Positions 4,453-16,136 of a DNA stretch of 33,963 nt are shown piece after piece (position 1 is the stretch's first letter; every line of letters starts with the position of its first letter). A model generated the notes under the pieces. That model ran no database searches, was not told the DNA's origin, and saw only the letters and a program-made list of their open reading frames with translations. Both the position numbers and the translations under genes were made by a program. The DNA is from Deltaproteobacteria bacterium (GTDB lineage: Bacteria; Desulfobacterota; WTBG01; CAIYCZ01; CAIRTM01), in assembly GCA_024276465.1 (NCBI GenBank), contig JAJRXD010000077.1, forward strand, positions 1 through 33,963, written 5' to 3'.

Positions 4453-5781
4453 TTATCTTCCTGCTCTGTTCGTTTCGCCTAACTTATTAAGTGCGTATTT
4501 GAAGGCTACGGGTCCTATTATCTGGTTTAGAGTGATTGAAGCAATGAGAATGCTCTGGATTGGAATGCCGATTTCAGGAAATCTTCTTACAACCTCAGAC
4601 AGAAGTCCCAGACTGACACCAGCCTGGGTAATAAAACCAAGCCAGGTATTTTTATAAATAATCGGATCATCTCCGGAAAGCCTGCCACTGAGGCAGGATC
4701 CTATGTAGAGCATTAACATTCGAGACAGGAAAATAATAAGTCCCAACATCCATCCGGTTTTCAGGGCATCAATATTTATTGATGCGCCGGTTATTGCAAA
4801 AAAGCCGACATAAATTGGCATGGAAACCCTGTCCATTCTGCTGAGAAATAAATTCCCATGCTTTGAGTAATTCTGTACAGTAAATCCTGCAACCATACAG
4901 ATTAAAAGTGGTTCGATGTTAAGGCTGATATCGTGTGCTTCATGAAAATATGCTCCAAGGGAATGACAGAACTTTATAACCACAAAACCCATTGCAATTA
5001 TCACTATGGGAAATTCAACCTTTACCCGCTCAATAAGGAAAACAAGTGCTTTGCCTAAAAGAAAACCGGCAATAAAAGCAACGATTATTTCAAAAATCAG
5101 ATCCAGCAAAAACGCAGGATCTATTGAGCTTCCGGAGGATATTGTTGCCTGACATATGGATATCAGCACTGCAAATAATATTATTATAACAACATCCGTT
5201 ACAACAGTTACGCTGAGGACAGTTTCTGTATATTTCCCCTTTGCCTTTGTCTCACTTATTATGGCAATGGCAGAAGAGGGGGAGCGTGCAACAGCAATAA
5301 CACCAAAAATTGCAGAAACAGCAAAACGGGCATACAGATCGTACTTCATCAAAAAGGGGATAAAACCTGAAAAAGCAAAAAGAGTAAGAGACACACCAAT
5401 AAAAACCACTGATGTACCTCCGACTAAAAGAAAAAAGATGTTTTTGATATTGCTGCGTATTTTATTTAACTGCAGTTCGCCCCCTGCACAGAACGCAATA
5501 AAAGCAAGGGCAAGGCTGTTCAGGAAACTCAGGTTTGCTACAGCATTACTGCTGTAAAACTTTAAAAAAAAAGGTCCGAAAAAAAGACCTGCAAAAATGT
5601 ATCCTGTAATTCTTGGAAGTTTGAATTTTTCAAGAAGAGAGCCAGTGCAATAAGCTGATAAAAGAAGGAAGCCAATAAGAAGTGTGGGTGAATCAGTTTC
5701 AGACAGACCAGGAAGATCTGAATAAACAATCAGAGCCATAGTGGCAAGAACAATTAAAAGGCTTATTGATTTATAATACAT
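4453..5781 (-). CDS. cation/proton antiporter (CPA family), first of a pair by position
   Basis: 442 residues, almost entirely hydrophobic, with about twelve predicted membrane segments, the topology of the Na+/H+ exchanger (CPA, PF00999) family. Family signs are the LLEKFKLPRITGYIFAGL segment (the L-P-x-[IV]-x-G-[YF]-[IL]-x-[GA] pattern of Kef/NhaP-like proteins) and a single membrane-embedded aspartate in TVVTDVVIIILF. A second conserved segment is FFAITGASINIDAL. There is no C-terminal RCK/TrkA domain, so control would have to come from a separate protein; ptsN-like and PII-like genes follow immediately. It starts 23 bp after the stop of the second antiporter, in the same operon. The ion (Na+ or K+) cannot be told from sequence. 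Confidence 0.85.
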   Translation of the reverse strand: MYYKSISLLIVLATMALIVYSDLPGLSETDSPTLLIGFLLLSAYCTGSLLEKFKLPRITGYIFAGLFFGPFFLKFYSSNAVANLSFLNSLALAFIAFCAGGELQLNKIRSNIKNIFFLLVGGTSVVFIGVSLTLFAFSGFIPFLMKYDLYARFAVSAIFGVIAVARSPSSAIAIISETKAKGKYTETVLSVTVVTDVVIIILFAVLISICQATISSGSSIDPAFLLDLIFEIIVAFIAGFLLGKALVFLIERVKVEFPIVIIAMGFVVIKFCHSLGAYFHEAHDISLNIEPLLICMVAGFTVQNYSKHGNLFLSRMDRVSMPIYVGFFAITGASINIDALKTGWMLGLIIFLSRMLMLYIGSCLSGRLSGDDPIIYKNTWLGFITQAGVSLGLLSEVVRRFPEIGIPIQSILIASITLNQIIGPVAFKYALNKLGETNRAGR

Positions 5782-5804
5782 GGCTTAATAATTTGCGGCT
5801 CAGG

Positions 5805-7019
5805 TTAATGCTCTTTTACTGAAACAGGTTCAAACTCGGAAAATTGAGCAAGGATAAGTTTCGGGCTTAATAATTCATTAATAAATAGAGAGAGTATTAA
5901 TATTGTAATAAGAAAATCCGAAAAAGAGGGGTACAGAAGTTTGAAATTAATTATAATGGCAACAGCAAGTCCGCCTTCAGAGATAAGGCCAAGACCAAGA
6001 CCGGCAGGCACCGTGTATTCTGGTTTAAATATTCTTGTGGCAGCAAAAGTTCCGATAAGCTTTCCTGAGGTCCTTACAAAAAAATAAATACCAGCAATTA
6101 CCAGGCTGTAATCCATTGAAAACTGCCAGGCAGCCCCAAGCATAAGAAGCAGGATAATATATATTGATTTTTCTGCATGAATAACTACAGATAAAGCGCG
6201 AATGCGATGCGGACAGAAATTTGCAGTTATAATTCCACATATAAGGCCTGCTACAAGTGGAGAGTGGTGTATTTTATAGAAAAGCCCGCCGCAAAACATT
6301 ATAGTTCCAATGAGAAATACAAGATATTCCTGCTGTGTAAATCTTGTCCGGCTGAGTAATATAAGCACAACAGCAGGAACAAGAGCAGTTGTTGCAGAAA
6401 TCAGCAGCCATTTTATTGATTTAATGAAGTTAAATTTTTCAACATCACCTCCTGGAATAATACAGAGGGCAACAGCAAAAAAGCAGAGTGCAAAAAGACC
6501 GTCAACACTTGAAATGTAGCGCATTAATCCAAGCAGGGTTCGATTTTTGAACCAATAATTCCTGCTTACAATAGCAAGCGCAGACTGTGCAGTACATGAA
6601 GCAGTGCTTCCAAGTGTAATGGCTGCCATAAAAAGGATGCTTTCCGGAAGAGATACAAATTTGTCAATAATCAGGTACATTGCAGCGGTTACAGCTGAAA
6701 AAGTCACAAAAGCCTGAACAGCAGTTATTGAAAAATAGAATTTCGGAAGATTTTTTAACTGGCGAAATTCAAACTGCAGTCCAAAAAGAAATCCTATCCA
6801 GCTGAGCCCGAAAATCAAAAAAGTCTCCAGCATTTTCAATGTTTCAGCATCAAGCACCTCAAGCCCCATTGTGCCTAAAAGGACTCCTGCAAATATGTAT
6901 TCAGTGCCTGTTAAAAGGATATTCCTGAATCCAAGAGGAATCCTGCGGTTCAGAAAAGTAAGGCGTGATCCTGTAATGGATATCAGAGCTATAATTACAA
7001 TTGCAAGGAGCAGTTTCAT
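5805..7019 (-). CDS. cation/proton antiporter (CPA family), operon-leading paralogue
   Basis: 404 residues with about twelve hydrophobic segments. It is related in layout to the downstream antiporter but clearly divergent in sequence. Supporting features are the GTEYIFAGVLLGTMGLEVLD segment, an embedded aspartate in ISSVDGLFALCFF, and FKPEYTVPAGLGLGLISEGG near residues 335-355, which resembles the last conserved helices of the family. Like its partner it lacks cytosolic nucleotide-binding domains and ends about 20 residues after the last helix. Two unlike antiporter subunits side by side could form a heterodimer or act on different ions (inference). It is the first gene of the minus-strand operon, divergent from the universal stress protein gene. 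Confidence 0.82.
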   Translation of the reverse strand: MKLLLAIVIIALISITGSRLTFLNRRIPLGFRNILLTGTEYIFAGVLLGTMGLEVLDAETLKMLETFLIFGLSWIGFLFGLQFEFRQLKNLPKFYFSITAVQAFVTFSAVTAAMYLIIDKFVSLPESILFMAAITLGSTASCTAQSALAIVSRNYWFKNRTLLGLMRYISSVDGLFALCFFAVALCIIPGGDVEKFNFIKSIKWLLISATTALVPAVVLILLSRTRFTQQEYLVFLIGTIMFCGGLFYKIHHSPLVAGLICGIITANFCPHRIRALSVVIHAEKSIYIILLLMLGAAWQFSMDYSLVIAGIYFFVRTSGKLIGTFAATRIFKPEYTVPAGLGLGLISEGGLAVAIIINFKLLYPSFSDFLITILILSLFINELLSPKLILAQFSEFEPVSVKEH

Positions 7020-7188
7020 TAGGTCTTAATATAAAATAAAAGAAAAAAGAGTGTAAATAAGCATTTAGATTCCGCTAATGTTTTGCTAAAATATCATTTT
7101 AATATTTACAACGCAAAAAAAATCTGCAAATATTTATAACATAGTGAAAACAGGACAAATCTAATCTGTATTACAGGGGGTAAAAATC
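7020..7188. promoter_or_regulatory. divergent intergenic region between antiporter operon and uspA-like gene
   Basis: This 169-bp, very AT-rich stretch separates two divergently transcribed units, so it must hold both promoters. I could not pick out convincing -35/-10 pairs, an RpoN site or an operator palindrome. The uspA-like gene has a strong ribosome-binding site (AGGGGG) at about 7175-7180. Confidence 0.45.
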
Positions 7189-8028
7189 ATGATTAAAAGC
7201 ATACTTGTTCCCACTGATGGATCGCCAAACAGCAGAATTGCTTTAGACTACGCTATTTATCTTTCTTCCAGGTTTCAAGCTGAAATCACAGGACTTAATG
7301 TAATTGATATACGTGCTCTTGAAGGACCCTTCCTGAATGATATATCCGGTTCCCTTGGGTTCAGTCCTTATCAGAATTATGTTCCCAAATTCCAGCAGAT
7401 CCTTGAAGAAAGGGGTGATTTAATACTTGAAGAATTTAAAAAAAAATGCATTAGTGAAAAATGTATTCAGGCGAAAATTAAAAGGATGACCGGTATTATT
7501 TCCAACATAATTGCTGAGGAAGCAAAAAGGGTTGATCTTGTTATAATTGCACAGCGTGGAGAGCATGAACAATGGTCATCCGGTCTGCTTGGCTCAACCA
7601 CAGAATCAGTAGTAAGAAAATCACCACGCCCTGTTCTTGTTACACCTAATACATTTTCCGGGTTCTGCAGTGCCCTGATTGCTTATGATGGCAGCACGGA
7701 ATCCAACAAGGCGCTAAAGACTGCCTGTGAGCTGTTGCCCCTGCTTAATTGCAGTTTAAAAGTGGTTTTTGTGACTGATGACAAAGAAAAGATCAGGTTG
7801 CTGACAGATGAAGTTAATGAATTTACCGGGCCGTATAACATGAAGATTGAGATTGACAACCTGAAAGGTGATGCAGGAAAAGAAATTGTAAATTATACGG
7901 AAAACAATAATATTGACCTGCTTATAATGGGCGCTTTTGGGCACAGCCGCCTGCATGATCTTATTTTAGGAGGCACTACGGCATATATAATCAGGAACTC
8001 GAAAATACCGGTATTGCTGAACAGATAA
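7189..8028 (+). CDS. tandem universal stress protein (two UspA domains)
   Basis: 279 residues with two consecutive Usp folds. Domain 1 (residues 1-150) opens with MIKSILVPTDGSPNS and ends with LLGSTTESVVRKSPRPVLV. Domain 2 (about 160-279) opens with ALIAYDGSTESNKAL and ends with a nucleotide-binding loop of G-x2-G-x9-G type (MGAFGHSRLHDLILGGTT). The loop of domain 1 (AQRGEHEQWSSGLLGSTT) lacks the first glycine, so domain 2 is the more likely ATP binder. An AGGGGG ribosome-binding site precedes the ATG by 8 bases. UspA proteins are cytosolic stress regulators that often accompany transporters; the divergent position next to the antiporter operon suggests a shared trigger (inference). Confidence 0.93.
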   Translation: MIKSILVPTDGSPNSRIALDYAIYLSSRFQAEITGLNVIDIRALEGPFLNDISGSLGFSPYQNYVPKFQQILEERGDLILEEFKKKCISEKCIQAKIKRMTGIISNIIAEEAKRVDLVIIAQRGEHEQWSSGLLGSTTESVVRKSPRPVLVTPNTFSGFCSALIAYDGSTESNKALKTACELLPLLNCSLKVVFVTDDKEKIRLLTDEVNEFTGPYNMKIEIDNLKGDAGKEIVNYTENNNIDLLIMGAFGHSRLHDLILGGTTAYIIRNSKIPVLLNR

Positions 8029-8098: not shown

Positions 8099-9019
8099 TC
8101 ATGGTTTGCGAGCATCGGGTTTTTGCTGAAAAAGCTGCATATATTTGTTAATTTTCTTATCCGCATGGCAGGATACGCAAAGTTTAGAGGTATCGGGTGT
8201 TCGCAAAAAATATTTTTCACCTGCACCAACAGCAGCTTCTCTGCGCCCGATAATACCTTTTGGGTGCGGATTATGACAGGTAGCACAGTGCATCCTGCCG
8301 TTTTCCAGCGGCAACTCAATACCTGACTTCTCAAACTCATGGAAAACAGCTTCCTTTTGTCCAAGGGTATCAGGTTTAAGCAGTACATGAACAATGTGAC
8401 CTTTGGACAGATTACCATGACAACCTGTGCAAAGGGCAGGGCTTTTCGTTTTTAATGATGCTTCAAACTCAGCTTCACTCCCTGAGGCAAGCCCCTCAGT
8501 GTGACAAAAATAACAGGGCGGACGGTTTCCAGCGCCATAACCGATTTGCTGCTGATGTGGATTAATCTTTTGAAACAGTGCTTTTTCGTGACATTTGAAA
8601 CAGAAACCAGTGATATCTGCAGGTTCATCTGTCCGCAAAAAATTGATATTTTTCCTTTTCTCTGCAGAATTGGCGTGCATTTGCAAACGTATTGCATGGC
8701 AGGTAGTGCAGGTTATTTTTGATTCAGCAAAAGGCCAGTCAGCAGGAACACTAATATTCATGGGATCAGGCAGTATAATTTCCTGTTCATGTGCCTTTAC
8801 ACATGCGGGAGAGCCGTTGTTGTGACATCGAATGCAAACCTGCAGCAGATCACCGTTGAATTTCAGTTCAGGAATCCTTTCATCAGCATGACATTCAGTG
8901 CAGTGTTTTCCTGACCAGTGCGGATCTATTGCCCTGTTTGCACCGACGGATGGTGTCACCAACCCGGATAAAATGAACGTGAGGACTGCTGTAATAGTGT
9001 AGCGGAGTTTTGGTGTCAT
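8099..9019 (-). CDS. periplasmic octahaem cytochrome c
   Basis: 306 residues from the ATG at 9019. That start gives a clear signal peptide (MTPKLRYT, a hydrophobic stretch to residue 26, then an SVGA-type cleavage site). An alternative ATG at 9064 would overlap the upstream gene and add 15 residues. Eight CxxCH haem c sites lie near residues 40, 62, 104, 140, 169, 197, 245 and 281. A ninth near-motif, CVKAH at 73-77, lacks the second cysteine. Additional histidines (for example HWSGKHC and NPHP) could be distal haem ligands. The even spacing is typical of electron-transfer multihaem proteins and no catalytic domain is evident. It is the last gene of the cytochrome/NrfD operon and probably works as a periplasmic electron carrier or module. 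Confidence 0.88.
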   Translation of the reverse strand: MTPKLRYTITAVLTFILSGLVTPSVGANRAIDPHWSGKHCTECHADERIPELKFNGDLLQVCIRCHNNGSPACVKAHEQEIILPDPMNISVPADWPFAESKITCTTCHAIRLQMHANSAEKRKNINFLRTDEPADITGFCFKCHEKALFQKINPHQQQIGYGAGNRPPCYFCHTEGLASGSEAEFEASLKTKSPALCTGCHGNLSKGHIVHVLLKPDTLGQKEAVFHEFEKSGIELPLENGRMHCATCHNPHPKGIIGRREAAVGAGEKYFLRTPDTSKLCVSCHADKKINKYMQLFQQKPDARKP

Positions 9020-9057
9020 AACTGAAGTTGATAAAAAGTTTATTTTCAAATAAACAC

Positions 9058-10491
9058 CTACCATTTTTTGTGAAAATAGAGAAACCGTACAAGGGCTTCT
9101 TCGCCATGGCATGCTTTGCAGAACCTTTCTGCAATTTCAGGCTTAAGAAAGCCTGCAGAGCTGTTATCTGAGCCATCAAAGGGTATGCCGTCAATTGTGT
9201 AGGAATCCAGCTGGCTGACATTGTGACAGGTTGCGCATGCAATTGTCCCATTATCAGAAAGTAATCCGCTGTCATTAAAAAGATGGATTCTGTCAGTCAT
9301 GCCAGTATCCTGTTCAAAAAAAACACTGCCGAAAAACATCCGCGGATGCAGCCCAATGTGCGGGATACTGAAAAATTGTTCGAGGTCTGAATGTTTGCGT
9401 GACAGGTCCCTGACCCGTGAAAAAACAGCCTGACCATTATGTGCAAGATGACATGAAGAGCAGGGGCTTGTTTCCTGAACATAATTGTCTGCGATGTTGC
9501 TTTCCGAAACAGGCTGAAGAAGCAGGTTAAGTGGAATTTCTGACAAAGATGTCCTGCTGTTGTGGCATTTAACACAGAGCTCATCCTTTCCCTTTTTTTC
9601 TGAAAGCAGATATTTTCCAAAAGCATGATGGGGCTTATGGCATGTTCTGCAAACAATCTCTTCCTTATGGCTGACAACTACTTTTTCACCATTGGACCAT
9701 GCAGACGGTATCTTCATGCCATTTTCCGGCTTTACGTCAACAGGATGGGAAAGCATTCCGGCTGATGTCTCGCCAGGCCTTACAGCATTTTTTGTGTGGC
9801 AGACTTCACAAAGCACAGACATGGATTTTATATTCTCAAGCGGAAGAACTAAACGTTTATTGTTTACACCCCCGTGTGCCATGTGACATGTTTCACAGAT
9901 GATCTGGTTGCTGAGGTCTGTGCCAAATTTGCCACCGCCTTGTTTAATGATATCCGTACTGGTTTTGACAGAGACATCTACGGGATGATTGCCCCTGGGC
10001 AAACCGCCAAGCTTTTGTTTGTGGCATGTTTTACAGAAGGATGAATTTTCGTTTGGCGCTCTGAGAAAGTATTCAGCCATTGACTCGCTTTCTTCAGTAA
10101 CCGAATGGGGCGTATGGCACGTGGTACACTTGAGCGTCCCGTTTTTACCAAGAGGAAAACCGGGTGGAATGTCAACGCGCTTTGAAGGAATCTGGCCAAC
10201 ACGGTGGCCAGGGTCATTGCATATACTGCTTCGCGAATCCCGGACAGATCCGTCATGACAGGAAATGCACACTTTCCAGGAAAACATGTCATGGTCTTTT
10301 TCAGGCATTTGTGCAATGGGTGTGCTTCGGTGCTCAAGAAAAAATGTGGATACCCACTGAAAGTGGCAGATGGCACACTTTCGTGAAGTATCAGGCTTTA
10401 AGGCAGCGTTGGCTTTACCTGCCGTATTGATCCAGACAGCAGACAGCAGAAGCAGAATTGTTATTGCAACATGATTTGACCGAAACTGCAT
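9058..10491 (-). CDS. periplasmic 11-haem cytochrome c
   Basis: 477 residues from the ATG at 10491, one base after the stop of the NHL gene. This start gives a signal peptide (MQFRSNHV, hydrophobic core, then TAGKANA before ALKPD); longer upstream starts run into the NHL gene. Eleven CxxCH motifs occur near residues 39, 75, 122, 153, 199, 228, 281, 306, 344, 419 and 458. The segments TCHTPH, TCHMAH and CHKPHHAF show the CxxCH-x-[PA]-H pattern of cytochromes related to the NrfB/doubled-CxxCH families. The gene ends in TAG at 9058-9060, and a TGA follows after three more codons, so readthrough would add very little. It is probably the main haem wire of the complex encoded by this operon. Confidence 0.9.
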   Translation of the reverse strand: MQFRSNHVAITILLLLSAVWINTAGKANAALKPDTSRKCAICHFQWVSTFFLEHRSTPIAQMPEKDHDMFSWKVCISCHDGSVRDSRSSICNDPGHRVGQIPSKRVDIPPGFPLGKNGTLKCTTCHTPHSVTEESESMAEYFLRAPNENSSFCKTCHKQKLGGLPRGNHPVDVSVKTSTDIIKQGGGKFGTDLSNQIICETCHMAHGGVNNKRLVLPLENIKSMSVLCEVCHTKNAVRPGETSAGMLSHPVDVKPENGMKIPSAWSNGEKVVVSHKEEIVCRTCHKPHHAFGKYLLSEKKGKDELCVKCHNSRTSLSEIPLNLLLQPVSESNIADNYVQETSPCSSCHLAHNGQAVFSRVRDLSRKHSDLEQFFSIPHIGLHPRMFFGSVFFEQDTGMTDRIHLFNDSGLLSDNGTIACATCHNVSQLDSYTIDGIPFDGSDNSSAGFLKPEIAERFCKACHGEEALVRFLYFHKKW

Positions 10492-10492
10492 T

Positions 10493-11428
10493 TTAATGTT
10501 TTTCAAGCTTTTTATCATATAAAATGTCATAGACTCTGATACGGTTTGGAAGCATCTCAACAACATAAAGACGATGATGGCTGTCAATGGCCAGGCCAAG
10601 GGGGGTTTCCCATTTCAGAATATCCCCTTTTTCATTACCAAGCACAGCATTGAAATCACCATTGCTGTTAAATGCCTGAATTACTCCAAGAACACTGTCT
10701 GAAACAAATACCTGTCCGCTGGCATCAACACATACACCTTTTGGCCTGTAAAATTTCCCCAAATCAACGCCCCAGCCGCCGATGCTGCCTGCCGGAACAC
10801 CATCTCGCCAGATCTGAACCCTGGTATTCAGTACATCGACAATGTAAACTGATCTGTTTTTTGCAGCAATTAAAAAGGGATAATGAAACTGGCTGTCCCT
10901 GAGCCCCTCTGAACCAAGGATAGAAAGAAGCTTGTATCCGGGGATGGAATAGACAAGCAACTGGTGATTATCGTTGTCAGAAACGTACAGTCTCTTGAGG
11001 GTGTTGTCAACAGCAACATCAACAGGATCCCGAGGCTCATTATTTTCAGTTGGCAACAGCAAAACCTGGCTTTTAAAATCACCGTCAGAAGAAAAGATCT
11101 GTATCCTCTGATTACCCGTATCAGCCACATACACACGTCCTGAGCTGTCAGTAGCAATGCCAACAGGGTTTCTGAAATTTCCCTTTTGTGTTCCTTTTGC
11201 TCCAAAAGAAAATTTATAAGTTCCCTGTGCATTAAAAACTTTGACTCGACTGTTAACCCCGTCCAGTATATAAATAAAATTGTTCTTTCCAATGGCAACA
11301 TCAGTCGGCTGCAAAAAATCTCTGCTAATGTCAAAGAGGTGCTGAAGAGGCAGAACCGTATAGGCGTGGCCGGTTAAAGGAAAAATTCCGCAGATGAGTG
11401 CTGCTAATAAAACATATATTTTTTTCAT
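10493..11428 (-). CDS. secreted NHL-repeat beta-propeller protein
   Basis: 311 residues with a signal peptide (MKKIYVLLAALICGIFPLTG, cleavage near HAYT). The rest is a set of about six NHL-type blades marked by repeats such as PTDVAIGKNNFIYILDGVNS, GRVYVADTGNQRIQIFSSDG and GQVFVSDSVLGVIQAF. NHL propellers act as binding scaffolds; periplasmic ones are often found beside multihaem cytochromes and may help assemble the redox complex (inference). The position between the NrfD gene and the 11-haem cytochrome gene supports a structural role in that complex. No haem motif or enzymatic signature is present. Confidence 0.9.
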   Translation of the reverse strand: MKKIYVLLAALICGIFPLTGHAYTVLPLQHLFDISRDFLQPTDVAIGKNNFIYILDGVNSRVKVFNAQGTYKFSFGAKGTQKGNFRNPVGIATDSSGRVYVADTGNQRIQIFSSDGDFKSQVLLLPTENNEPRDPVDVAVDNTLKRLYVSDNDNHQLLVYSIPGYKLLSILGSEGLRDSQFHYPFLIAAKNRSVYIVDVLNTRVQIWRDGVPAGSIGGWGVDLGKFYRPKGVCVDASGQVFVSDSVLGVIQAFNSNGDFNAVLGNEKGDILKWETPLGLAIDSHHRLYVVEMLPNRIRVYDILYDKKLEKH

Positions 11429-11498
11429 AAGGCAGAGATGACCAAAAAAGCTTTAATGAAATTGCAGTTTCTAATCAGTGATTTTATTTATTGTTCAG

Positions 11499-12740
11499 TC
11501 AGCAAGGCGTTTGCTGCAATGCCTGCCGGGTTTGCTTATGCCTGAATCTTCCTGACAGGATCGGAATGGCAAGATGGATCATCCAGGAATAGAGCAGGGC
11601 TCCGAAGGCCCATATTCCGATACAAACCAGTGATTCATAAAGTGTCGGAAAATACTCTACGACCTCTCCAAGCGGTGTTGGCACAAATCCTGACACGACC
11701 ATACCAGGCCCTTTTTCAATCCATATACCTGTTATTGACAAAAAGCAGGCAATGTTTGCAAGTGGCATTTTGCGGGCAAAAGGTGGAACAAGGAAGATCA
11801 AAGCTGCAATGGATTCTATAAAGATTGCAAACCATATCCACGGCACTAACATATTGTGGCCGTGAAGGCCGAAAAAAAGATACCGTGCTGAGCTGGAATG
11901 GGCAGACTCTGCGTAAAATTCTTTAAAAACCTCACAACCAACAAGAAAAAGATTTACCAGCAGTGATATGGTTACAATCTGGCGAAGCAACCGCAAAGCT
12001 TCATCACTGATTTTGTAATTAGTATAGTGCCGGATAATCTGGAATGTTATAAACATGAATCCAGGGCCTGCTGTAAAGGCAGAACCGATAAAGCGGGGAG
12101 CAACTATGGCTGCGTTCCAGAACGGTCGTCCGGAAAGGCTGATATAGAGAAAAGCAGTAACAGTATGAATGCTGACTGCCCAGAAAATTGCGATAAAAAC
12201 AAAGGGTATATAAATCAGCGGTGTTGGTTTTTTCCCTAAATAATTAGCATAAAGCAGATATCCACAGATATGAACGTTAAGCATGAGATATCCGATCAGA
12301 ACCACAACATCCCATGAAAGCATGGAGACAGGAAAGTTGAATTTGCCAATAACCGGCATCAGGTGCCAGAAACGGTCCGGACGACCCAGATCAACATTAA
12401 CAAACAGAAGGCACATGACTATTGCAGCAATGGCTAACAATTCGCCCAGAATAACAACATCATGAAGAGGTTTGTTATGGTAAACATAGGCTGGGATTAC
12501 CAGCATCACCGCAGCAGCGGCAAGCCCGACAAGGAAAGTGAAATTTGCAATGTAGAGCCCCCATGAAACCTGGTTGGTCATTCCGGTGATCGCAAGGCCG
12601 TGAGTAAACTGATTAACATAGGAGTACGCGCCGGTAAACACAATTAACGTCAGAAAGGTCATCCATGTATAATATTTTTTGTTCCCGTAAAAACTGAGCC
12701 TGTACACTCGCCAGAGAAAAATGATGTAGTCGCGGATCAT
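11499..12740 (-). CDS. NrfD/PsrC-type quinone-interacting membrane subunit
   Basis: 413 residues with about ten hydrophobic segments, the size of the larger NrfD-family subunits (DsrP, HmcC and QrcD type). Typical family features include VSWGLYIANFTFLVGLAAAA near residues 58-77, the loop NVDLGRPDRFWH, and SMLSWDVVVLIGYLMLN. A proline-containing region EKGPGMVVSGFVPTPLGEVV precedes the last helices. NrfD proteins bind menaquinone in the inner membrane and pass electrons to or from a partner four-cluster Fe-S protein. That partner is encoded immediately upstream (18-bp gap), so the two almost certainly form one membrane module. Confidence 0.92.
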   Translation of the reverse strand: MIRDYIIFLWRVYRLSFYGNKKYYTWMTFLTLIVFTGAYSYVNQFTHGLAITGMTNQVSWGLYIANFTFLVGLAAAAVMLVIPAYVYHNKPLHDVVILGELLAIAAIVMCLLFVNVDLGRPDRFWHLMPVIGKFNFPVSMLSWDVVVLIGYLMLNVHICGYLLYANYLGKKPTPLIYIPFVFIAIFWAVSIHTVTAFLYISLSGRPFWNAAIVAPRFIGSAFTAGPGFMFITFQIIRHYTNYKISDEALRLLRQIVTISLLVNLFLVGCEVFKEFYAESAHSSSARYLFFGLHGHNMLVPWIWFAIFIESIAALIFLVPPFARKMPLANIACFLSITGIWIEKGPGMVVSGFVPTPLGEVVEYFPTLYESLVCIGIWAFGALLYSWMIHLAIPILSGRFRHKQTRQALQQTPC

Positions 12741-12758
12741 AATACAATTACCTGTTAA

Positions 12759-13730
12759 TTATTTTTCAAAAAAATAGTAAAAACGCGGAAAAGTTTGAAG
12801 AGACTCCTTTAAAACATAGACACGTTTATTTTCAAGAACATAACTGATTGGGTTGCCAGGCTCCAGAATATTGGCAAAAATTCGTGACCCGGTGGGGCAT
12901 ACTTCCGCACAGGCCGGCAGCATTCCCTGTCGTGTACGGCGAAGGCAAAAGGTGCATTTTTCAGCTACACCTCGAGGCCTGATGCGGTTTCCGAGGTAGG
13001 CCATCTCTGTATTGATGTCATTGCTGGCTATTTTTGGAGTTGCAAAATTAAACCTGCGTGCCCAGTAAGGACATGCTGCCAGGCAATAGCGACAGCCAAT
13101 GCACCAGTTGTAATCAACAACCACGATACCGTCAGGGTCCCTCCAGGTTGCTTTTACGGGACAGGCCTTGGTGCAGGGTGAGTTTCTGCACTGATGGCAC
13201 TGAACAGGCATATAATACTTACCCTTGTTTGGAACAGTTTCGGGGTTATAGTAATGGTTGGATGATTCAATATCCATAGACCCCTTTTCCATTTCCAGAA
13301 CACGGATATACTGGATTTCAGGGTCGCGTGACTGGTTGTTTTCATCCATGCAGGCATATACACAGCGCCTGCAGCCAATACAGCGCCCAAGATTAAGTGC
13401 ATAGGCAAATTCAACACCAGGTGTTGGTTTGATATCCCTGAGATCAGCTTCCACATCATAATCCCGCTTAATTTCCTGCTTTATTCTCTCTAAAATTTTT
13501 TCCATCATTTCAGGAGTAAGCTCTTCATAATGCTGCTGAAAAAATTCATTGACACTGAAATGCTGATCCAGATCTTTGAGCGGGCTTAAGGTTATTGCAG
13601 TCCCGGCAGACAAAGCAACAGCTGCTGCACCAGCCTTTAAAAAGCTGCGGCGCGTCAAAGGCTCATGAGTCATGTCATCAAGTGAGGCAGGCTCTGTTTG
13701 ATCGTGTTCTTTTCTGCTTTGGTCACTCAT
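12759..13730 (-). CDS. Tat-exported ferredoxin-like subunit with four [4Fe-4S] sites (DsrO/HmcB/NrfC type)
   Basis: 323 residues from the ATG at 13730. This start has a good ribosome-binding site (AAGGA 8 bases upstream) and overlaps the stop of the tetrahaem gene by 8 bp; ATGs 6 and 10 codons further upstream are less likely. A twin-arginine signal (LTRRSFLKAGAAAVALSAG, residues 26-44) sends the folded protein across the membrane. Sixteen cysteines form four clusters: 117/120/123/127, 178/181/186/190, 210/213/216/220 and 259/262/274/278. This is the fold of the Fe-S subunits that pair with NrfD proteins (DsrO, HmcB, PsrB). It should relay electrons between the quinone site of the next gene product and the periplasmic cytochromes. 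Confidence 0.94.
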   Translation of the reverse strand: MSDQSRKEHDQTEPASLDDMTHEPLTRRSFLKAGAAAVALSAGTAITLSPLKDLDQHFSVNEFFQQHYEELTPEMMEKILERIKQEIKRDYDVEADLRDIKPTPGVEFAYALNLGRCIGCRRCVYACMDENNQSRDPEIQYIRVLEMEKGSMDIESSNHYYNPETVPNKGKYYMPVQCHQCRNSPCTKACPVKATWRDPDGIVVVDYNWCIGCRYCLAACPYWARRFNFATPKIASNDINTEMAYLGNRIRPRGVAEKCTFCLRRTRQGMLPACAEVCPTGSRIFANILEPGNPISYVLENKRVYVLKESLQTFPRFYYFFEK

Positions 13731-14334
13731 GGTGCTTGTCCTTTTCATATTTGTGCGCAACCGGATTGACTGGGGGCGGCATGGGCTTTAAATCCGGAAA
13801 TTTTGGATGATGCGGGTTGTGACATTGATTGCATTCAATTTTTTTCTGTGGGCCAAGCTTATTATTCCAGTAGCCGTTAATTCGACCGTGGACCCCGGCA
13901 CGCCAGTCCCTGTATATTACCCCGTGACAGTTCCTGCAGAGAAAAACAGGTTTATCCCTGGCAATCACACTGCCATCATAATCAGTAAATGCATCCGGGT
14001 GCTCAGGATTATGGCAATTCATGCACCGGAGATTCAAACCATGTGTAAAAAGCATATCCTTATGCGCACCAAACGGGAGGTGTGATTTTTTCGGCTTGGA
14101 TGTGAGATCCTTCACATGGCACTTGCTGCATTTATAGGTAAATTCCTGCGTGTAAAACAGCAGTTTCGGCTCTTTGTAAACCGGGGTTTTGTCAGACCAT
14201 GTTTTGGGCAGATCTAATATTTTAAAGGCAGGTAAAATTTCATGCTCTGTGTAGGGTTCCTGACAGTATGATGGCCAAACGTAAAGCATGCAAAAAAAAA
14301 GCAGTAGTGGTATGTATAAATAAAAAAGTTTCAT
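13723..14334 (-). CDS. tetrahaem cytochrome c, first gene of the NrfD operon
   Basis: 203 residues from the ATG at 14334; a GTG two codons upstream (14340) is also possible. The N-terminus (MKLFYLYIPLLLFFCMLYVW) is a signal peptide or an uncleaved anchor. Four CxxCH haem sites lie near residues 69, 104, 133 and 168. Further histidines (HLPFGAHKD and NPHHPKFP) could be distal ligands. The C-terminus is rich in proline and charged residues. The order small cytochrome, Tat Fe-S protein, NrfD copies the DsrJ-DsrO-DsrP arrangement, but this cytochrome has four haems and not three, so I do not call it DsrJ. It is translationally coupled to the Fe-S gene by an 8-bp overlap. Confidence 0.88.
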   Translation of the reverse strand: MKLFYLYIPLLLFFCMLYVWPSYCQEPYTEHEILPAFKILDLPKTWSDKTPVYKEPKLLFYTQEFTYKCSKCHVKDLTSKPKKSHLPFGAHKDMLFTHGLNLRCMNCHNPEHPDAFTDYDGSVIARDKPVFLCRNCHGVIYRDWRAGVHGRINGYWNNKLGPQKKIECNQCHNPHHPKFPDLKPMPPPVNPVAHKYEKDKHHE

Positions 14335-14825: not shown

Positions 14826-16136
14826 TTATCCCTGCCTGAGATATGACAGTTCATCCGGAAGAGGCGTGCTGTTACCCATTGTGTCCTCTCCATAATTAGC
14901 TTCTGCTAAAATTGCCAGGTCTCTGACAGCATTTTTATCACCGCAAAAGGCCACCTCTGTAATGGCATCTTTTTTGATCATACCACCAGCCCACATGATG
15001 TCAATTACACTGCTGGCATCAAACTCCTTGTTGTTCACAACCATGGTTACTTTTGAGTTGTAGTGGTTTGCAATTTTTGCTACCAATGTGGACGGCCTGA
15101 GATGAAAACCAAGGCCTTCAGGTACTTTAACTGTTTTTGATTCAACAACTACAAATTCGTCTAAAATCCTGTTCGCAATTTTTACACCATCTTTAATAAA
15201 GGAAGAGTAGTAAAAAAGGGCAAAGTTGAAAATATTGCTGAGTATTTTTTTTTGCGGGATTATCTTAGCTATCTTTTGACGGGTGGCCTCTTTACGAACA
15301 CTTGTTGCATGACGTTCGTAGAAATGGCTCAGCTCCTTTGCAACCCCGAGAAGATGCAGGGTAATTGAGATGTGACCTCTGAACATGCCAAGAATTTTGT
15401 TTTCTGCTTCAAAGGGCGTTTTTTGAATATATGTATCATAGATTGATTGAGCATTGTGAACCTGGGACTCAAGCCGTCGCAATGTTTCTTCATTTATTTT
15501 TTCAGGAATAAGCCTTTCATCTAAAATCTTTGATGCCGACATTTTTTTAAACATCACATTGCATGAAGACTCATAGGTATCGATAAATTCCTTTGCAACC
15601 CGGGATATGTAATCATTTACGTCCTGAACTCCTTCATCATTTATGTTTTGAGGTAAAATTTGACTGACAATTTCCTCCTCAAAATCATCAATATGCAAAT
15701 TTGCAGAAGGTATGTTGAGGTGCAGGTGAATGGCCTCTTTTTTAAGGTAATTAAAAAGTGAAGAGATGGATTCGTTAAAAAAATCAAGACGTTTGTCTGC
15801 GTCTTTAATAAAAGAGTTCAACTTTCTACTGTTCAATTTATAGAATTTTATTCGTCTTTGAATATGACTGATTATGTAAGCAGTCCGTGATAAATTTCTT
15901 ATTGAGGCTACAATTTCACCGAAATGGACCCATATTTTATTGTTTCTTGCGCCATAGTCATCCAGGAAGTCCTCAAGCTCATTTGATTCTTTAGCTATGG
16001 CAACATATAGTTTTTTGTTTAATTTTTGCTTCCTGTTTTCAGAAAAACAGGAAGCAAAACCGAGCATTTTATGGGATGCCTTATTTGCTATTGGAACAAA
16101 ATCTTTTTCACTAATAATTTTTACAAAAAATTCCAT
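14826..16136 (-). CDS. HPr-domain protein with a long helical N-terminal region
   Basis: 436 residues. The last 100 residues form an HPr (PTS phosphocarrier) domain. The phosphorylatable histidine is His345 in GLGFHLRPST, and a serine exactly 31 residues later (Ser376, in DASSVIDIMWAGG) matches HPr Ser46. The first 330 residues are charged and mainly helical, with no family I recognise; heptad-like stretches such as SRKLNSFIKDADKRLDFF suggest a coiled coil. HPr is normally a free 85-90-residue protein, so this is a fused regulatory form. A ribosome-binding site (GGGAAG, 8 bases) supports the start. It could pass phosphate from an enzyme I elsewhere to the PtsN-like protein of this window (inference). 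It follows the repeat-protein gene by 39 bp in the same direction. Confidence 0.8.
   Translation of the reverse strand: MEFFVKIISEKDFVPIANKASHKMLGFASCFSENRKQKLNKKLYVAIAKESNELEDFLDDYGARNNKIWVHFGEIVASIRNLSRTAYIISHIQRRIKFYKLNSRKLNSFIKDADKRLDFFNESISSLFNYLKKEAIHLHLNIPSANLHIDDFEEEIVSQILPQNINDEGVQDVNDYISRVAKEFIDTYESSCNVMFKKMSASKILDERLIPEKINEETLRRLESQVHNAQSIYDTYIQKTPFEAENKILGMFRGHISITLHLLGVAKELSHFYERHATSVRKEATRQKIAKIIPQKKILSNIFNFALFYYSSFIKDGVKIANRILDEFVVVESKTVKVPEGLGFHLRPSTLVAKIANHYNSKVTMVVNNKEFDASSVIDIMWAGGMIKKDAITEVAFCGDKNAVRDLAILAEANYGEDTMGNSTPLPDELSYLRQG

Follow-up and report, generated by a model that had tools for sequence, protein, structure and literature searches.

Models of electron export are weak at the step that leads from the quinol pool to the cytochromes of the outer membrane, since the genes of export cytochromes and those of inner-membrane dehydrogenases often lie in separate places. 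A stretch of 33,963 nt from an uncultured Thermodesulfobacteriota bacterium (hereafter the window; contig JAJRXD010000077.1 of assembly GCA_024276465.1) raises the question of what is encoded where components of both kinds stand side by side, as six genes located on its minus strand at 8099–14334 combine an NrfD/Fe-S core with an NHL propeller protein and two large multihaem cytochromes. The source is a 181-contig draft assembly with 95 % completeness and 4.4 % contamination.

Gene content and layout of the locus

The six genes (Table 1) and the 23 haem motifs originally predicted for them have been borne out by the open reading frames, by the CXXCH counts in the three cytochromes (4 + 11 + 8 = 23) and by Pfam and NCBIfam searches, which confirmed NrfD, four-cluster Fe-S, NHL and multihaem cytochrome families. 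Shuffling of each cytochrome yielded a mean of 0.03–0.06 CXXCH motifs and never more than 2, and nowhere in the entire 34-kb window does another frame exceed 2; thus, a chance origin of the 23 motifs is excluded.

Table 1. Genes of the cluster, listed in the order of transcription
Product	Position	Strand	Features
4-haem c-type cytochrome	13723..14334	-	start ATG 14334 or GTG 14340; 4 CXXCH
Tat-exported four-cluster Fe-S protein, NrfC/DsrO/CbcT type	12759..13730	-	exactly 16 Cys in four groups; Tat motif RRSFLK; PF13247 7e-18
NrfD/PsrC-type quinone-binding membrane subunit, DsrP-like but not DsrP	11499..12740	-	PF03916 3e-37
NHL beta-propeller protein with signal peptide	10493..11428	-	PF01436 1e-31
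11-haem cytochrome	9058..10491	-	11 CXXCH; shortened relative of 16-haem cytochromes (C101 and elsewhere)
8-haem cytochrome	8099..9064	-	start 9064 or 9019; 8 CXXCH

The start of the Fe-S gene (ATG 13730) overlaps the stop of the 4-haem cytochrome gene, while the 11-haem gene, the listed frame of which starts at TTG 10599, was reassigned to the more probable ATG 10491, which lies ahead of a plausible signal peptide and one base beyond the NHL stop. In gene order, the intergenic distances are an overlap, 18, 70 and 1 bases, followed by either an overlap or 38 bases. Such overlaps and short gaps make the single operon of the original prediction likely, co-transcription itself being deduced from the gene spacing. 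The opposite reading, in which the core operon ends at NrfD and the NHL, 11-haem and 8-haem genes are transcribed separately as an unrelated unit placed head to tail, draws on the position of the largest gap, the 70 bases between NrfD and NHL, and on the separate origin of the two modules. This gap contains no sigma-70-like site, promoter and terminator scans returned matches near the chance level, and the same NrfD–NHL junction is found in another genus, which together render two operons very improbable.

The genome with the conserved junction, G005, belongs to a second genus and exhibits the same order up to the end of its contig, which falls inside the 11-haem gene; identity to the window proteins amounts to 82 % for NrfD, 66 % for NHL and 63 % for the 11-haem cytochrome. 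The search for the six-gene order in other genomes that had been proposed at the outset has thus found it again as far as that contig reaches, so that the order is known complete once and nearly complete once, in two draft assemblies. As the sampling drew on 395 genomes from the phylum and a single pattern-based contig scan, rarer or more distant cases may exist.

Neither the cluster nor the remaining main frames of the window, as scanned with Pfam, contain porin, molybdopterin or DsrK-like genes. The gene next to the upstream end of the operon, likewise on the minus strand (14826–16136), encodes a protein of 436 residues, in which an HPr-type domain occupies part of the C-terminal portion and the long N-terminal portion is devoid of Pfam matches. 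In the region adjoining the downstream end (4453–8028), a gene for a universal stress protein is accompanied by two genes of the Na+/H+ exchanger family.

The quinone-linked core and its relatives

The first three genes encode the core. In the 4-haem cytochrome, the four CXXCH motifs are accompanied by four further histidines (H91, H98, H149 and H175) that are invariant among 25 homologues from several phyla and would be enough for bis-His haems. An N-terminal helix (residues 2–23) in its predicted model may serve as a membrane anchor or a signal peptide; the model itself (pLDDT 71, pTM 0.50) has no match among solved structures. The NrfD subunit keeps Tyr, Glu, Asp, His, Arg and Lys positions in common with DsrP, with acidic, His, Arg and Tyr positions conserved in the window group and in DsrP alike, and its residue spacing fits the quinone and proton-path residues described for DsrP (PMC8076601) by a constant offset, in an alignment that did not knowingly include the D. 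vulgaris protein. A search with PF14589 gave no match anywhere, the controls being equally devoid of matches. An apparent fusion of the Fe-S and NrfD genes in several loci was rejected as an artefact of the long out-of-frame reading frames that occur in GC-rich DNA, the intact Fe-S protein lying in another frame (as shown for L005).

The resemblance to DsrP extends to family models, since NrfD scores 402 bits with the NCBIfam DsrP model (NF045798; cut-off 350), and the cytochrome, Fe-S protein and NrfD stand in the same order as in DsrJOP, with the same fold families; the Fe-S protein reaches 147 bits with the DsrO model, under the cut-off of 200. Nevertheless, assignment of the operon to the DsrJOP or DsrMKJOP complex of sulfate or sulfite respiration is so improbable that it can be practically dismissed. 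In an NrfD tree rebuilt without most of the very long outgroup branches, all 17 DsrP sequences form one clade (99/100), outside of which the window protein is placed, and grouping it with DsrP was rejected (AU p = 0.0004), which answers the comparison with DsrP called for by the original prediction. The window NrfD is 38–44 % identical to proteins of the DsrP clade, its cytochrome has four haems as opposed to three in DsrJ and in the neighbours of DsrP-clade genes, and the operon lacks DsrM and DsrK. Another set of loci in the phylum, with NrfD 40–46 % identical and separated from the window group in the tree, does display the DsrJOP pattern, with three haems in the cytochrome and a shorter Fe-S protein. 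No dsrA above the cut-off of 393 bits was detected in the window genome (best score 32 bits) or in eight family members, as compared to 568–604 bits in four DsrP-bearing genomes of the phylum used as a positive control; dsrAB is missing as well. The likeness to sulfate reducers that had been predicted holds for the Dsr-like shape of the core and, in the absence of dsrA, does not extend to physiology.

Among the other complexes named in that prediction, QrcABCD includes a molybdopterin-like subunit (QrcB) and a 6-haem cytochrome (QrcA), neither of which is encoded in the operon, and the window proteins score 48 bits with the QrcD profile (cut-off 570) and 132 bits with that of QrcC (cut-off 400). 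The first subunits of Hmc, Nhc and Ohc are class III cytochromes with 16, 9 and 8 haems, respectively; the HmcB profile gave 87 bits against a cut-off of 420, and no model for Nhc or Ohc gave a match. By gene content, the closest described match of the core is one that the prediction omitted, namely Cbc4 of Geobacter metallireducens and G. sulfurreducens, in which the 4-haem CbcS, the 4Fe-4S protein CbcT and the inner-membrane CbcU occur in the order of the window core (PMC10989804, PMC11434368). Cbc4 has been reported to be raised during interspecies electron transfer (PMC10989804), is encoded by a cbcSTU operon with CbcT homologous to DsrO (PMC11434368), and has been proposed to be a menaquinol oxidoreductase for electron export (PMC10989804, PMC11434368). 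The likeness is one of gene content and published description, not of compared sequences, and Cbc4 as described has neither an NHL protein nor large cytochromes.

A single pattern-based scan of genome contigs with NrfD retrieved 31 loci from seven phyla (Thermodesulfobacteriota, Planctomycetota, Verrucomicrobiota, Acidobacteriota, Myxococcota, Elusimicrobiota and Hydrogenedentota), in most of which a 4-haem cytochrome and an Fe-S protein are encoded immediately upstream of NrfD. The core accordingly recurs as a conserved unit in at least seven phyla, accompanied by differing output genes. One type of output pairs a NapA-like enzyme and a 4-haem cytochrome (as in L015, L018, L020 and L028), found in Planctomycetota, Verrucomicrobiota and Flammeovirga kamogawensis. 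In three loci tested, these enzymes score about 852–887 bits with NapA models, under the cut-offs of 904 and 931; the adjoining cytochrome matches NapB in the one case tested (L015). The other type is an octahaem cytochrome of 460–490 residues from the HAO family (PF13447), present in seven loci (L002, L003, L004, L007, L011, L066 and L077). The NrfD subunits of these cores, all homologous to that of the window, are 46–73 % identical to it, the highest value being that of a paralogue in the window genome itself (C88), next to which a PF13447 octahaem cytochrome is encoded; in place of such outputs, the window operon has the NHL, 11-haem and 8-haem genes.

The NrfD tree follows these associations. 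The NapA-side sequences, some with an incomplete gene neighbourhood, form one clade (100/99), while the window and G005 proteins pair (100/100) inside a six-member family clade (100/99) on the octahaem-linked side, the other members of which, one of them from the window genome, carry an octahaem cytochrome. The window core belongs with these cores both by the position of NrfD and by a 4-haem cytochrome with the invariant histidine set, and both genomes with the NHL version also retain an octahaem version of the core.

The NCBIfam model NF045798 over-calls DsrP. On a plasmid of Flammeovirga kamogawensis (Bacteroidota; L115, NZ_CP076130.1, 515650–534822), a Nap-linked NrfD is labelled 'DsrMKJOP subunit DsrP' in a locus comprising napD, a molybdopterin oxidoreductase, two 4-haem cytochromes, an Fe-S protein and NrfD. 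Such mislabelling of a widespread core could prompt wrong claims on sulfur metabolism in Planctomycetota, Verrucomicrobiota and Bacteroidota.

Further NrfD loci are present in the window genome. One (L067, C143:24000–42000) combines a 4-haem cytochrome, Fe-S protein and NrfD with a 7-haem cytochrome and a DsrMK- or Hmc-like fusion protein (NarI-like/4Fe-4S/CCG), while another (L068, C69:18000–34636) is Qrc- or ACIII-like, with 13-, 4- and 5-haem cytochromes, a molybdopterin-like protein, an Fe-S protein and NrfD. In an uncultured delta proteobacterium, a frame of 1079 residues with 33 CXXCH motifs (L014:2076–5312) lies a few kb from a copy of the core.

The NHL protein and the large cytochromes

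Among the 395 genomes of the phylum, the best relatives of the 11-haem protein after that of G005 are 12- to 16-haem cytochromes from the same family, order and class. Their loci also encode NHL proteins 45–56 % identical to that of the window, a 14-haem cytochrome alignable to the 8-haem protein and b561-type multihaem fusions of CbcL-like layout, and several add a 10-haem MtrA-like protein with an MtrB/PioB-like porin beside it, the name of the porin resting also on this adjacency because its match (22.1 bits) is under the cut-off of 23. The haem spacing of the 11-haem protein corresponds to haems 1–9 plus the last two of the 16-haem homologues, with an internal block absent, while the 8-haem protein aligns with residues 4–313 of the 14-haem homologues (34–40 % identity) and represents the first 8 of their 14 haems; in both, most of the histidines required for bis-His haems are kept. 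In the NHL and 11-haem trees, the window and G005 proteins are paired (100/100), and the NHL pair is nested inside the export-cluster set. On homology and haem spacing, the NHL, 11-haem and 8-haem proteins are a shortened counterpart of the NHL, 16-haem and 14-haem module of the family.

Porin-cytochrome clusters of this bacterial family (C101, C43, L102 and L110) thus share with the window a homologous NHL protein and large cytochrome pair. They differ on the quinone side, which is a b561-type CbcL-like multihaem fusion, often with the MtrA-like protein and porin, whereas the window has the NrfD/Fe-S core and no porin. In the window genome, the related NHL/large-cytochrome module is located on contig C101 and a pair of porin and 10-haem MtrA-like protein on C43. 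Contig C101 (41 kb; L101, L113 and L114), apparently an electron-export supercluster, contains four NHL proteins in addition to about a dozen or more multihaem cytochromes, the largest of which have 16 haems. Upstream of the G005 operon (L069:4974–7445), a 13-haem cytochrome and a thioredoxin-TPR protein are encoded, which lack counterparts at that place in the window; their relatives (65 and 47 % identical, respectively) sit near the C101 module of the window genome, which further points to exchange between these two types of locus.

Inspection by eye revealed no lipoprotein box in the NHL protein or in the 11-haem and 8-haem cytochromes, and all three are accordingly read as periplasmic. The 11-haem protein has no match among solved structures in a single-sequence comparison, and the 8-haem protein has a weak one (E 7e-4) to chain A of 6r2q, an entry labelled cystathionine beta-synthase, which we take to be an MtrABC structure. 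Either cytochrome could conceivably function as a terminal reductase acting on soluble compounds such as nitrite, sulfite or organic acceptors, in the manner of Mcc or octahaem nitrite reductases. Such a role would parallel the PF13447 octahaem cytochrome of the paralogous C88 operon, as well as the combination of octahaem sulfite reductase, Fe-S protein and NrfD-like subunit found in MccACD (PMC8076601). It is nevertheless quite unlikely, as both proteins lack matches to PF13447 and to reductase families, and both match wire-like DmsE/MtrA-type and paired-CXXCH models in addition to the 14- and 16-haem cytochromes encoded in porin clusters.

The combination of an NHL protein with 11-haem and 8-haem cytochromes, which the original prediction missed in the complexes it named, is not without precedent, given this family module and the NHL proteins described beside multihaem cytochromes elsewhere. 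Such neighbours share one cluster in the Uet pathway of iron oxidisers and cathode oxidisers, where an undecahaem cytochrome is included (PMC10734462), and in Desulfovibrio ferrophilus (DFE_0448–0464; PMC9769857), and they are also described for Geoalkalibacter. The comparison with Uet and D. ferrophilus is one of descriptions, not sequences, and in the passages considered an NrfD/Fe-S core is not described as part of these clusters, unlike in the window. The literature searched yielded no instance of NHL repeat, NrfD and cytochrome combined, which is weak evidence since subscription journals lay mostly outside the search, and no instance of the six-gene order, in agreement with the novelty predicted for it. 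While each part has known relatives, their combination in one gene cluster appears to be undescribed.

Proposed electron path and partner exchange

The reading that we favour, with a modest lead over doubt, is that of a quinol dehydrogenase of NrfC/NrfD type wired to an electron-export module by a swap of partners. Judging from fold families and cofactor motifs, NrfD would oxidise menaquinol on the periplasmic face of the inner membrane and hand the electrons, via the four Fe-S clusters, to the anchored 4-haem cytochrome, which we infer to be the electron exit of the core. From there, electrons may reach the periplasmic 8-haem and 11-haem cytochromes, for which the NHL propeller would probably provide a scaffold or docking site, and subsequently porin-cytochrome conduits of the outer membrane, the genes of which lie elsewhere in the genome. 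This last link is placed in trans because the operon has no porin: the MtrCAB/PCC conduit consists of an outer-membrane porin with an embedded MtrA-type cytochrome, and none of the six genes encodes such a component. Gene content and homologies thus support the predicted quinone-to-cytochrome conduit with a Dsr-like core and no catalytic subunit, and the predicted lack of a porin applies to the operon and not to the genome, which has one on C43.

The direction of electron flow and the final acceptor are likewise inferred from sequence comparison. Since the NapA-like and octahaem outputs of homologous cores would accept electrons, they support quinol oxidation as the working direction, the NapA-linked loci implying that periplasmic acceptors are served. 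Were the complex to run inward, the 8-haem and 11-haem cytochromes would take up periplasmic or extracellular electrons and menaquinone would be reduced at NrfD, as in Qrc, which has a related NrfCD pair and reduces menaquinone electrogenically (PMC13059093), or as in electron uptake, NHL proteins being present also in Uet (PMC10734462). Inward flow seems unlikely, given that the nearest homologous cores adjoin NapA-like reductases or octahaem cytochromes, which would draw electrons from quinol, and that the NrfD tree places the window copy among them. Electrogenicity has been experimentally shown in this protein family only for Qrc (PMC13059093), and hence no claim on energy conservation is made here.

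The quinol dehydrogenase wired for export may have originated by duplication of a core that formerly served another acceptor, a sequence of events suggested by the observed gene order and homology; in the window copy, the shortened NHL/16-haem/14-haem module stands where the C88 paralogue has its octahaem cytochrome. With its parts traced to a Cbc4/Dsr-like core and an export module, the cluster would be assembled from two known kinds of module. A possible extension, put forward tentatively and with clearly less confidence, is that the six products form one stable supercomplex reaching from the inner membrane to the periplasm, with the NHL protein linking a Dsr/Cbc4-like quinol dehydrogenase to dedicated export cytochromes. 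If so, quinol oxidation and extracellular electron transfer would be united in a single genetic unit made by partner exchange. As the dehydrogenase and export halves lie in one cluster and a copy of the core with a different output is retained in the same genome, the partner specificity of such dehydrogenases may be tested by direct comparison.
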